Source: Melioribacter sp. (GTDB taxonomy: Bacteria; Bacteroidota; Ignavibacteria; Ignavibacteriales; Melioribacteraceae). From it: 64,000 nt of DNA. The position numbers and the translations under genes are program-made. Below, piece by piece: positions 9,482-21,081 of the stretch; the first letter of the stretch is position 1, and each line of letters starts with the position of its first letter. The stretch spans positions 186,001 through 250,000 of the forward strand of contig JAOACD010000009.1 in the NCBI GenBank assembly GCA_026417975.1, in the 5' to 3' direction. The notes under the pieces are model-generated. The model was not told where the DNA came from, made no database searches, and worked only from the letters and a program-made list of their open reading frames with translations.

Positions 9482-10261
9482 TTATTTCAATTTTATTGCT
9501 ATACAATCATAAACAATCCTTCCACCTAAGTAATTAGTGTAACTTCTGTTCAAAATTCTCCAGTTAGATATTTGGAAAGAGCCATTATTAGAAAGTAATT
9601 CTGAAATATTTGACGTTTTATCTAATACATCTAAAAGTTCTTTGTTTTGTGTTAAAGCTAAATGATTTCCATTACTATCGATAATTATTTGTATTGGTTC
9701 TATTATTAAATCTTCCAAACCTTGAACAGGAAGTTTAGCAATACTTTCCCTAACTTCAAGCTGAATCATTCTAGCACGAGCTTCGGGTCCTACAAAGTCT
9801 TTTGCAGTACTAATCATATCAAGCAAATAATTGCGTACTGAATTTAAATCTGTTAATGATTTTAATTTATTTTCATCGTGTAATTCCATCAATGCTTTTG
9901 CAATATTGGAGATTTCTTTTAGATAATTATTTCTTTGATTACTTGGTACGAGATACATTATAACAATATGAACTGGGATATTATCTGTGGCACCGTAATC
10001 AATACCTATCGGACTCCAACCTACAGCACATAATAAATCTCCTTCAAAGGGAACTCTTGCATGTGGAACAGCAAAGCCTTTGCCTAACGAAGTATTGAAG
10101 CTCTCTTCTCTTTTTAATACTAATCCTGCAACATCAGTATTATTTGGTACAGAAGGTATAGCCTCTATAATATGGGATAGAAATTGTAATGCATGTTTTT
10201 TATCGTTATCAGGAAGTTCAATAAGTCGTCCTTCTTGTAATGCATCAAGTAGTGTATCCAT
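9482..10261 (-). CDS. PTS EIIA (fructose/nitrogen type) domain protein next to mgtA
   Basis: The N-terminal 150 residues are a type-2 PTS EIIA domain, with the phosphorylatable histidine H67 in KGFAVPHARV and the later DNIPVHIVIMYLVPS strand. The remaining 110 residues are an extension I do not recognise. No sugar permease genes are nearby. The gene sits two bases downstream of the Mg2+ ATPase, clearly in the same transcript. EIIA(Ntr)/PtsN proteins are known to modulate ion transporters and sensors, so a role in controlling the pump is a reasonable inference. It is not a demonstrated one. Confidence 0.8.
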   Translation of the reverse strand: MDTLLDALQEGRLIELPDNDKKHALQFLSHIIEAIPSVPNNTDVAGLVLKREESFNTSLGKGFAVPHARVPFEGDLLCAVGWSPIGIDYGATDNIPVHIVIMYLVPSNQRNNYLKEISNIAKALMELHDENKLKSLTDLNSVRNYLLDMISTAKDFVGPEARARMIQLEVRESIAKLPVQGLEDLIIEPIQIIIDSNGNHLALTQNKELLDVLDKTSNISELLSNNGSFQISNWRILNRSYTNYLGGRIVYDCIAIKLK

Positions 10262-10263
10262 AT

Positions 10264-12924
10264 TTAATTATCTCCAAATTTTTTAAAGAACCATGACTTT
10301 ACAAAATGAGTTAATGTTGCATATAAAATTAAAATTACAGCAACCCAAATCCAGTATACCATTGGAAGTGGTACAAAACCAAGAGTTTTTGAGAATGGAG
10401 AATAAGGAAGCCAAATGCCTATAGTCATAATTAATATAGTTGTTAATGTCATTGATAAGGATGCCATGCTTCCAAAGAAGGGGATTCTTTTTGTTCTTAT
10501 GATATGAACTATTAATGTTTGAGTTAATAGAGATTCAACAAACCAGCCTGTTTGAAAAAGACTTTCTAAATATTCTTTTTGCTGTGCTGAAGTTAGAGGA
10601 TTAAGGTAATCTTTTGTATTAAAGAAAAACCACATCAATCCAAAAGTAACATAATCGAATATCGAGCTGATTGGACCAATAAAAATCATAAATCTTTTTA
10701 TATTTTCAATATTCCATTTTAGTGGTTTTTCAATTAGTTCTTTATCTACGTTATCTGTTGGAATTCCAGTTTGAGAGAAGTCATATAGTAAATTATTAGT
10801 TAATATTTGTACGGGTTTCATTGGTAGGAATGGGAACAGATAACTTGCACCAAGAACACTAAACATGTTTCCAAAATTAGAACTTGCGCCCATTCTTATG
10901 TACTTTATAATATTTGCAAATACTTTTCTGCCCTCAATAATTCCTTCTTCAAGCACCATTAAGCTTTTTTCGAGTAGAACTATATCTGCAGATTCTTTAG
11001 CAACGTCGGCAGCAGTATCGACTGAAATACCAACATCTGCAGCTCGAAGTGATTGTGCGTCATTAATTCCATCTCCCATGTAACCAACTACATGTCCTGC
11101 TTCTCTTAATGCATAAATTACTCTTTCTTTTTGTGAAGGAGATAATTTTGCAAATACATTAGCCTCTTCTACTATTTTCCTAAATTCTTCGGGCGTCATT
11201 TTATCAAGTTCTTCTCCAGTTACTATTTTGGTAATTTTTAGACCAACTTCATTGCAAACTTTTTTAGTTACAAGAGCATTATCACCAGTAAGAACTTTTA
11301 CTTCAACACCATTATTATGTAGTGCAGTAATTGCTTCTGCAGCAGACTCTTTTGGAGGATCAAAGAATGCTATGTATCCTAGTAAAATTAAATCTTTTTC
11401 GTCAGCAGTAGTGAAGGTTTTCTTTTCCTTAGGAAATTCTTTGTAGGCTATTGCTAATACTCTATAGCCATCATTATTTAAATCTTCTACTTCTTCATAA
11501 AGGTCATTTTGTAACATTGGAATGAGGGGATAGATTTCGTCATCAACTTGATACCTATTGCATACAGCAAAGATTTCTTCAACAGCACCCTTGCAAATTA
11601 ATACATGATCTCCTTCGTATTCAACTACAACAGACATTCTTCTTCTTTGAAAATCAAATGGAAGTTCATCTACAAGTTGGCATTTCGCTTCTACATTTAA
11701 ATCAATATGAGAAATAATTGCACGGTCAATTAAATTTCTTAAACCAGTTTGGTAAAAACTATTTAAGTATGCATAAAGTAAAACGTCATGACTTTCTTTA
11801 CCTGTAATATCAACATGTTTTTCAAGAACAACTTTATCTTGTGTAAGCGTACCTGTCTTATCAGTGCATAAGATATCAATTGCACCAAAGTTTTGAATTG
11901 AGCTAAGGTGTTTAACAATAACTTTCTTTTTAGACATTGTTAATGCACCTTTAGCTAAATTAACCGTAACAATCATTGGTAACATTTCAGGAGTTAAACC
12001 AACAGCAATAGACAGTCCAAAAAGTAGAGCTTCGATCCAGTTACCTTTAGTAATGCCAACAATCATAAAAACAATGAAAACCATAATTATCATAAATCGA
12101 ATCATTAGAAAAGTAAATGACTTTACACCTTTATCGAAGCTTGTTTGAGGGCGTGTTTCAGTTAATCTTTCAGATATTGACCCAAAGTATGTATTAGTTC
12201 CAGTATTAACAACAACACCCCGCGCACTTCCACTTATTACGTTGCTGCCTTGAAAACATGCATTTGAAAAATCAAAAATGTAATTCTCATCGGCTTTAAT
12301 TAATTCTGCTTTTTTCTCAACAGGCATTGATTCACCTGTTAAGATAGATTGGCTTACAAAAAAATCTTTGGTATAGATTAATCTAATATCTGCCGGTATT
12401 ATTGAACCTGCATGAAGTAGCACAATATCACCTGGAACAATTTCAGAAATTGGAATCTCAACTTCTTTTCCATCTCTTAGTGCAACTACGTGAGTTTGAA
12501 CTTTTTTACCTAACGCTTCTACTGCTTTGTTTGATCTTCTATCTAAAACATAGGATAATCCAACACTCAAAAGAACCATACAACTTACAATAAAAGTAGA
12601 TTTTATTTCTCCAATAATACCTGATACAATTGCTATTATTAAAAGTTGGATTACTAAGGGGCTTTTCATTCTATTAAAAATATCTCCCCAAAAACCAATT
12701 GTTTTTGTATGGGCTAATTCGTTTTTACCATATTTTTCTAATCTACGTTCTGCTTCTTCTTTACTTAATCCTTTTGCTGAAGTTTTTAATTTTTTAATAG
12801 CATCTTGAACAGTCGAACGGCAGATATCTATTAATAGTTTTTCTTGCTCGGTTAAGATATGAGGAGCTTTTGCTTCTTTTGTAAATGTCGAAGGAGAAAT
12901 TTTTGTGAAGATTGATTTTGTCAT
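10264..12924 (-). CDS. mgtA: Magnesium-translocating P-type ATPase (MgtA type)
   Basis: This inner-membrane P3B ATPase imports Mg2+ using ATP. The 886 residues show the full set of P-type motifs: the actuator TGES (196-199), the phosphorylation site CTDKTGTLTQD with D355, the FFDPPKESA nucleotide-domain segment, and VGYMGDGINDAQSL. The membrane motif is GLTPEMLPMIVTVNLAKGA and the C-terminal membrane part is complete. The intergenic leader upstream holds a probable attenuator, and the EIIA gene follows in the same operon. Ca2+ or other P2 ATPases are less likely given the MgtA-type NNLLYDFSQTGIPTDNVD segment. Confidence 0.92.
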   Translation of the reverse strand: MTKSIFTKISPSTFTKEAKAPHILTEQEKLLIDICRSTVQDAIKKLKTSAKGLSKEEAERRLEKYGKNELAHTKTIGFWGDIFNRMKSPLVIQLLIIAIVSGIIGEIKSTFIVSCMVLLSVGLSYVLDRRSNKAVEALGKKVQTHVVALRDGKEVEIPISEIVPGDIVLLHAGSIIPADIRLIYTKDFFVSQSILTGESMPVEKKAELIKADENYIFDFSNACFQGSNVISGSARGVVVNTGTNTYFGSISERLTETRPQTSFDKGVKSFTFLMIRFMIIMVFIVFMIVGITKGNWIEALLFGLSIAVGLTPEMLPMIVTVNLAKGALTMSKKKVIVKHLSSIQNFGAIDILCTDKTGTLTQDKVVLEKHVDITGKESHDVLLYAYLNSFYQTGLRNLIDRAIISHIDLNVEAKCQLVDELPFDFQRRRMSVVVEYEGDHVLICKGAVEEIFAVCNRYQVDDEIYPLIPMLQNDLYEEVEDLNNDGYRVLAIAYKEFPKEKKTFTTADEKDLILLGYIAFFDPPKESAAEAITALHNNGVEVKVLTGDNALVTKKVCNEVGLKITKIVTGEELDKMTPEEFRKIVEEANVFAKLSPSQKERVIYALREAGHVVGYMGDGINDAQSLRAADVGISVDTAADVAKESADIVLLEKSLMVLEEGIIEGRKVFANIIKYIRMGASSNFGNMFSVLGASYLFPFLPMKPVQILTNNLLYDFSQTGIPTDNVDKELIEKPLKWNIENIKRFMIFIGPISSIFDYVTFGLMWFFFNTKDYLNPLTSAQQKEYLESLFQTGWFVESLLTQTLIVHIIRTKRIPFFGSMASLSMTLTTILIMTIGIWLPYSPFSKTLGFVPLPMVYWIWVAVILILYATLTHFVKSWFFKKFGDN

Positions 12925-12980
12925 TATTTCCCCTGCAGTTTTTTGAAGATAGTGTTCACACTGATTTTTCTAATTTTATG

Positions 12981-13009
12981 AAAAAATCCAGCACGAAAAT
13001 TTACTGGAT
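12981..13009 (-). terminator. Intrinsic terminator inside the mgtA leader
   Basis: Read on the minus strand, AUCCAG and CUGGAU (12986-12991 and 13004-13009 on the plus strand) form a six-base-pair stem. Two inner pairs (U.G, A-U) can extend it to eight. It is directly followed by six U residues. It ends 57 bases before the mgtA start codon, so it would stop transcription before the gene: an attenuator position. Confidence 0.65.
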
Positions 13010-13095
13010 GGATAAGAATTAAAGATAAAGTATTTTTCATTGGCATTTCCATTAGTTAAACTTTTTTGGAAATGAACCAATGAAAAACTTGAGGC

Positions 13096-13170
13096 TCATT
13101 TCCAAAGAAAGTAGTAAATTAATATATGATTATCTTTCTTCTTAGGCGAAAGTTCATCTGTATCAAGCAT
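13096..13170 (-). CDS. Candidate 24-residue leader peptide of mgtA
   Basis: A small frame on the minus strand runs from ATG at 13170 to TGA at 13096. It begins MLDTDELSPKKKD and ends YYFLWK. Acidic residues and a proline followed by a basic run recall the layout of the enterobacterial Mg2+-sensing leader MgtL (acidic/proline-rich start, then arginines). The stop codon lies inside pairing segment A of the leader switch. The ribosome-binding site is weak (ACGGA directly adjacent). An overlapping 12-codon frame starting at 13157 (MNFRLRRKIIIY) is an alternative. Expression is unproven. Confidence 0.35.
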   Translation of the reverse strand: MLDTDELSPKKKDNHILIYYFLWK

Positions 13171-13349
13171 TCCGTATCTTAGATTATTTTACAATATTAA
13201 AAAAATATGCAATTTTTAACAGTTACTTATTTGTACATGTAATTTATCAATGAAGTAGTAAAAGAATTTTTATATTTTGTTTATTAGCCTTCTACATTCA
13301 GTTTCAAAAAATAGAGTGTGAATATTGAATCATCCTTAATATTAGGTTA

Positions 13350-20593: not shown

Positions 20594-20601
20594 TATATTT
20601 G
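20594..20601 (+). promoter_or_regulatory. Bacteroidota-type -7 element (TATATTTG) before the fluoride riboswitch
   Basis: TATATTTG fits the TAnnTTTG -7 consensus of Bacteroidota. It lies just upstream of the riboswitch, so transcription would begin almost exactly at the aptamer. The -33 TTG is not well conserved here (TTT). Confidence 0.45.
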
Positions 20602-20605
20602 CATA

Positions 20606-20669
20606 GGCTATGGAGTTAGCCTTTTGTAAACCGTCCAGATAAACACATCGGACTGATAACTCCTACCTC
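20606..20669 (+). ncRNA. Fluoride riboswitch (crcB RNA motif)
   Basis: The conserved parts of the crcB motif can be read in order: GGCTATGGAGTTAGCC (20606-20621), AAACCG (20628-20633), a GTCC/GGAC stem (20633-20636 and 20649-20652) and the 3' TGATAACTCCTAC (20654-20666). GGAGTT and AACTCC supply the closing pairing. It sits about 30 bases before a gene for the fluoride channel CrcB, the classic target. No terminator is visible between aptamer and start codon, so control may be translational. Confidence 0.92.
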
Positions 20670-20697
20670 TTAAACAAAAACAAATACAGGTGATAAA

Positions 20698-21081
20698 TTG
20701 CAAAATTATATTCTTGTATTTATTGGTGCTGGTTTAGGAGGGGTATTAAGATACTGGCTTTCTGGATATGTCTATAAATTTGTTTCCCCTACCTTCCCAT
20801 ATGGTACTTTAGCAGTGAATGTTTTGGGCAGTTTTATTATTGGCTTTGTAATGTTTTATCTTGATGCTAATGAATTAATTGGCCGTGAACTTCGCCTTTT
20901 TCTTACAATGGGATTTTGCGGCGGGTTAACAACTTTTTCAGCCTTTTCATATGAAACTATTAACTTTCTAAAAGAAAAAGAATATTTATATGCAAGTATG
21001 AATATTCTATTAAATATTTTCCTTACTCTCTTTGTATTGTTTCTTTCTTATAAACTATCAAAAATAATTTCTGGAGAGTAA
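20698..21081 (+). CDS. crcB: Fluoride channel CrcB/Fluc
   Basis: This small membrane protein exports fluoride as a dual-topology dimer. The 127 residues have four hydrophobic helices with GAGLGGVLRYWLSGY, the polar-track segment YGTLAVNVLGSFIIGF and GFCGGLTTFSAFSYET (the conserved TTFSxF). The start codon is TTG, with AGGTGAT upstream. The fluoride riboswitch directly precedes it, and a DUF190 gene follows one base after its stop. Confidence 0.95.
   Translation: MQNYILVFIGAGLGGVLRYWLSGYVYKFVSPTFPYGTLAVNVLGSFIIGFVMFYLDANELIGRELRLFLTMGFCGGLTTFSAFSYETINFLKEKEYLYASMNILLNIFLTLFVLFLSYKLSKIISGE

Follow-up and report, generated by a model that had tools for sequence, protein, structure and literature searches.

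The leader of mgtA in the window (the 64,000-nucleotide stretch of Melioribacter sp. DNA analysed as a whole) raises the question of what its mutually exclusive hairpins decide, and in response to which signal. An earlier note had read it as a candidate Mg2+-responsive attenuator with an intrinsic terminator, upstream of a P-type Mg2+ ATPase gene. The identity of the gene is borne out by the score of its product against TIGR01524 (1113 bits, cut-off 611). Missed by that note were two upstream open reading frames (uORF1 and uORF2), as well as the Shine-Dalgarno sequence and AUG of uORF2 inside segment C. The leader is here considered to be, probably, a leader-peptide-controlled translational attenuator of Mg2+ transporters. 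The locus is laid out as follows.

10264-12924, minus strand: mgtA, the controlled gene, a Mg2+-transporting P-type ATPase (TIGR01524 equivalog, with Pfam P-type ATPase domains).
12924-13040, minus strand: uORF2, MKNTLSLILIHPVNFRAGFFHKIRKISVNTIFKKLQGK followed by its stop codon, which overlaps the mgtA start by one base (TAATG); longer than chance.
12981-13009, minus strand: terminator-like hairpin and U-tract inside uORF2, accessory at best; present in the window and in four of 21 mgtA leaders.
13033-13050, minus strand: segment C, with the Shine-Dalgarno-like GGAAA and the uORF2 AUG (13040-13038); GGAGGTGnCAATG in most relatives.
13068-13087, minus strand: segment B, partner of A or of C (folding and coevolution); the half facing A is 13078-13068, GGUUCAUUUCC.
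13093-13103, minus strand: segment A, GGAAAUGAGCC, forming the predicted "on" hairpin with B (coevolution); overlaps the uORF1 stop codon.
13096-13170, minus strand: uORF1, leader peptide MLDTDELSPKKKDNHILIYYFLWK followed by a stop codon inside segment A; family core MxDSDEPGA.
13153-13164, minus strand: acidic core of uORF1, codons 3-6, Asp-Thr-Asp-Glu; Asp-Ser-Asp-Glu in 22 of 23 leaders.
13192-13199, minus strand: possible promoter -7 element TAATATTG, a weak match (5/6) to the Bacteroidota-type TANNTTTG.

Directly after mgtA, with no gap, lies a PTS EIIA-like gene (PF00359, PtsN/FruA-like; 9482-10261, minus strand). The same neighbour is found behind mgtA in several other loci, Chlorobi-like genomes included, and the mgtA-EIIA pair looks conserved.

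Both pairings proposed earlier are recovered in the window, where A pairs with B over 11 bases (13103-13093 with 13078-13068) and B with C over about 17 bases with a two-base bulge within; the folded leader is more stable than all of 200 dinucleotide shuffles (z -2.8). The pairing segments persist in relatives: both competing hairpins can be folded in 23 of 23 leaders and their arms coevolve. Of the B:C cells in the plain alignment, 86% are paired, and the covariation score was reached by 2 of 500 shuffles and by no slid version. For A:B, both sides have changed in 11 of 15 pairs, a count blurred by one-base indels in B, with a slide of -1 nearly equalling the true register. A partner-permutation test was therefore used, in which the mean cognate duplex beat all 20000 partner permutations for A:B (-17.0 versus -12.4 kcal/mol permuted) as well as for B:C (-18.0 versus -14.7 kcal/mol), in statistics that ignore the relatedness of the sequences. 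On this comparative evidence, A:B and B:C are conserved, coevolving and mutually exclusive hairpins. A further candidate pairing, between C (GGUGCCA) and the invariant CCUGGCGC, was discarded because no more than one sequence class accommodates it. When folding was constrained, the equilibrium alone did not distinguish the on state from the off state, B:C usually winning with or without a ribosome on the acidic codons. Since B:C is favoured at equilibrium, the on state would have to be fixed co-transcriptionally, ahead of the synthesis of C.

What could set it is suggested by the 5' part of the leader. A short ORF is common to the upstream regions of close mgtA orthologs, mostly starting MPDSDEPGA or MRDSDEPGA (usual core M-x-D-S-D-E-P-G-A), and its reading frame is kept among the Ignavibacteria leaders. 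Asp3, Asp5 and Glu6 are present in all 23 leaders and other variation at codons 3-6 is synonymous; across 21 leaders, these codons differ at third positions only (GAY TCN GAY GAR). Most of the 23 came from a pattern requiring acidic residues, so that this conservation is partly a product of selection, yet the window, L066 and other leaders first seen via the mgtA gene were not chosen by pattern and keep the same three residues. Furthermore, codons 7-8 are CCU GGC in 21/21 related leaders, even though CCU accounts for 31% of Pro codons and GGC for 30% of Gly codons in the mgtA genes, which implies an extra constraint at the codon or RNA level. The window reads CTTTCG at this place (13152-13147); its peptide begins MLDTDELSP, without Pro7-Gly8, its Shine-Dalgarno sequences are weak, and it may be a weakened copy, among the most diverged of the family. 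The position of uORF1 is tied to the hairpins, its stop codon lying at A throughout: in 24 of 24 leaders tested, the 5' end of segment A is found no further than 17 nt upstream or 6 nt downstream of the uORF1 stop codon, so that a terminating ribosome would cover the whole of A or its 5' half.

At the other end of the leader, segment C coincides with a translation start. It lies at the uORF2 start site in the mgtA leaders other than L068 and L114, which have no AUG in C, and it is the ribosome-binding site of mgtE itself in the five members that precede that gene (L065, L092, L109, L111 and L116). With the exception of L068 and L114, B:C would hide the Shine-Dalgarno sequence and AUG of uORF2 or mgtE, the arrangement of a translational attenuator. 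As C is the mgtE ribosome-binding site and nothing stands between C and mgtE, what the family conserves as output is the accessibility of a translation start. In the 21 mgtA leaders, uORF2 has 30 codons versus 14.5 by chance (0 of 1000 shuffles as long); it overlaps the mgtA start in 10 leaders and ends 11-86 bases before mgtA in 11. Considering these gaps together with L068 and L114, coupling of uORF2 to mgtA is not universal. Upstream, a 5-of-6 match to TANNTTTG occurs 25-55 bases before uORF1 in 24/24 leaders (shuffled mean 10.5, maximum 18), most commonly at -41. Transcripts should thus include uORF1, the element standing about 40 bases before it in many leaders. The match in the window is weaker and closer and does not speak for a function; a second 5-of-6 match begins 8 bases upstream of the 13199-13192 element.

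The distribution of the family was established by pattern and by model, giving 28 distinct Ignavibacteria leaders in total, the window counted. A search for the exact MxDSDEPGA pattern in 84,980 species (one genome each) returned 25 stretches, 20 of which are of Ignavibacteria type with the leader (18 before mgtA, two before mgtE). The matches outside Ignavibacteria (L072, L074, L075, L078 and L082) were rejected, with no mgtA homolog in the downstream DNA examined (254-319 bases for L072 and L075); four of them run on as longer ORFs, while L082 is a 26-codon ORF from a genome with no covariance-model match. A slightly looser pattern gave 12 matches in 391 genomes of the class, one per genome (11 before mgtA, one before mgtE), and a reversed-pattern control gave no match among the genomes listed. 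A covariance model built from 21 leaders, with the window left out, recovers the window with a score of 70.6 bits (E=3.4e-14). In the 391 genomes it has 18 hits at E<=1.8e-4, every one of them upstream of mgtA or mgtE. New members have peptides beginning MSDSDEPDA and MPDSKEPGA (mgtE downstream) or MTGSDEPGA and MNDSDDPGA (mgtA downstream, in another family). Weak model hits with neither uORF1 nor an mgt gene (L117-L121, E 3e-4 to 0.009) were dropped.

Both L065 and L092 precede genes for complete 459-aa MgtE proteins, with the Pfam domains MgtE, MgtE_N and CBS in L092. L116 (G635), another mgtE leader, retains segments A, B and C, but its uORF is MKESSSYINLENKYSIKKTTLRK, without the DSDEP core; the switch may here carry a different sensor or one that has decayed. 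In 395 sampled genomes of the phylum, no leader turned up beyond the class. The acidic uORF is absent from the mgtA orthologs L011 and L034 (74% identical) and was not seen by eye at Chlorobi-like mgtA genes (63-66%), and the mgtE gene of the same genome as the window (L097) lacks the leader.

Taken together, these features suggest the following course of events. When Mg2+ is plentiful, ribosomes would reach the uORF1 stop codon and cover A; B would then pair with C, the start site would be hidden and mgtA would be off. When Mg2+ is low, ribosomes would dissociate or pause at the Asp-Ser-Asp-Glu-Pro stretch before A, leaving A free to form A:B co-transcriptionally, so that C stays open and ribosomes that translate uORF2 can pass on to mgtA (on). 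We infer Mg2+ sensing by the leader from its two target genes and the type of peptide. The earlier note had taken Mg2+ from the target gene alone, and this signal is now better founded, since this leader stands before mgtE as well and its acidic peptide is of the DSDEP type, resembling those that destabilise ribosomes at low Mg2+. A bare ligand-binding RNA, by comparison, does not follow from the conservation, given that the best conserved part is coding sequence. Nevertheless, the same peptide switch might answer to something other than Mg2+, with translation stress, EttA, EF-P, L31 or the supply of charged tRNA setting the pause at DSDEPG. In E. coli and Salmonella, peptides of this type show a response to EttA and L31 (PMC11282234, PMC8092293), and the invariant CCU-GGC hints at a codon-specific effect; however, the only targets are two unrelated Mg2+ transporters, which argues for Mg2+ as the physiological signal and makes this alternative unlikely.

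Another alternative is the transcription attenuator of the original proposal, in which formation of the 13009-12981 terminator depends on which of A:B and B:C is chosen. In the window the terminator-like site is genuine (stem 13009-12986, eight pairs, then TTTTT; 0.1 expected in shuffles), and such sites occur above chance over the leaders (four of 21 mgtA leaders versus 0.55 expected). Nevertheless, it is absent from the remaining 17, the mgtE leaders leave no room for a terminator between C and the gene, and the hairpin overlaps neither B nor C, so that the A:B/B:C choice cannot decide it directly. A trp-like arrangement, with a conserved terminator competing with an antiterminator, was thus not found, and termination as the core step is improbable: the terminator is rare, its copy in the window lies inside uORF2, and in the mgtE members C is the ribosome-binding site. 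Of the mgtA attenuator proposed earlier, the pairings stand, being kept and coevolving, while its transcriptional core is not supported. In the window, the terminator, which lies inside uORF2, could be no more than a second, transcriptional layer, acting when uORF2 is untranslated.

Lastly, a riboswitch that binds Mg2+, be it an M-box or a new aptamer, with incidental uORFs, as the location upstream of Mg2+ transporters and the alternative hairpins might suggest, is very improbable, with no Rfam match in the window leader or five sister leaders, a conserved 5' part that codes and carries synonymous changes, and a stretch from the uORF1 core to A that holds no further conserved core. Rfam cmscan gave no family at gathering score at the leader, sub-threshold hits being chance eukaryotic miRNA and snoRNA matches; the failure to fit an M-box, reported earlier, held both when the whole window was scanned at gathering score and when the leader was scanned with E values up to 10 allowed, and the M-box is likewise absent from the five sister leaders. 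Elsewhere in the window, an ordinary fluoride riboswitch (RF01734, 49.4 bits; 20597-20672, plus strand) precedes a CrcB/FluC-like gene starting at 20698.

The translational attenuator proposed here, governed by the uORF1 peptide, can be set against known systems. In the open literature (subscription papers lying outside the search), no description of this leader type was found, in line with the earlier expectation. Its nearest counterparts in logic are enterobacterial. In E. coli mgtL, low Mg2+ causes ribosome drop-off at EPDP and turns mgtA on (PMC11282234); early acidic residues (DxE/DEP motifs, in one case the designed NKDEPD) make translation EttA-dependent (PMC11282234); and in mgtQ of Salmonella, the mgtB ribosome-binding site is released through Asp2 and Glu5, which promotes mgtB translation (PMC8092293). 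The Ignavibacteria leader likewise places a short acidic uORF upstream of mgtA or mgtE. With mgtQ (PMC8092293) it shares the short uORF, early Asp/Glu, a presumed ribosome destabilisation, alternative hairpins and the predicted freeing of a hidden ribosome-binding site of a Mg2+ transporter gene. However, mgtQ has 8 codons and lies inside an operon between mgtC and mgtB, and a ribosome on its region 1 favours hairpin 2:3 and frees the ribosome-binding site (PMC8092293), whereas the present leader lies on the 5' side of its gene and combines three segments with a relay ORF to mgtA, and completion of its uORF would hide the start site. With mgtL (PMC11282234, PMC6460261) it has in common an acidic, proline-containing peptide upstream of mgtA, for which early drop-off at low Mg2+ would again mean on. 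The core is EPDP in mgtL and DSDEPGA in Ignavibacteria, and no sequence relation of the leaders was seen. The output of mgtL is Rho-dependent transcription termination (PMC11282234, PMC6460261), while translation initiation is predicted here; as far as sequence can tell, the start site conserved in C speaks for translation rather than to a Rho-dependent output of the mgtL kind. No relay ORF is described in the mgtL accounts consulted (PMC11282234, PMC6460261).

The selection of hairpins that hide or free a downstream Shine-Dalgarno sequence and AUG, by ribosome position on a uORF, is common to ermC-type attenuation (briefly treated in PMC10219788). In ermC, the on state comes from a drug-induced stall covering segment 1, whereas in Ignavibacteria early failure would free A and completion would cover it. 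The M-box (ykoK) also controls Mg2+ transporter genes from a 5' leader, but as a ligand-binding RNA, to which the Ignavibacteria leader has no match at any threshold. We lean towards an independent origin, in Ignavibacteria, of nascent-peptide Mg2+ sensing by ribosome destabilisation, in which one reusable switch (a DSDEPGA peptide and a three-segment RNA) serves the two unrelated transporters MgtA and MgtE via translation initiation, with a relay ORF for MgtA. The near-invariant DSDEPGA core with its CCU-GGC codons provides a short motif for probing the causes of ribosome drop-off. Peptide-based reading of Mg2+ via ribosome stability has so far been shown in enterobacteria; if the proposal is true, a like logic with another sequence and geometry, in a distant phylum and upstream of both mgtA and mgtE, would suggest a general way of sensing Mg2+ that has evolved more than once.
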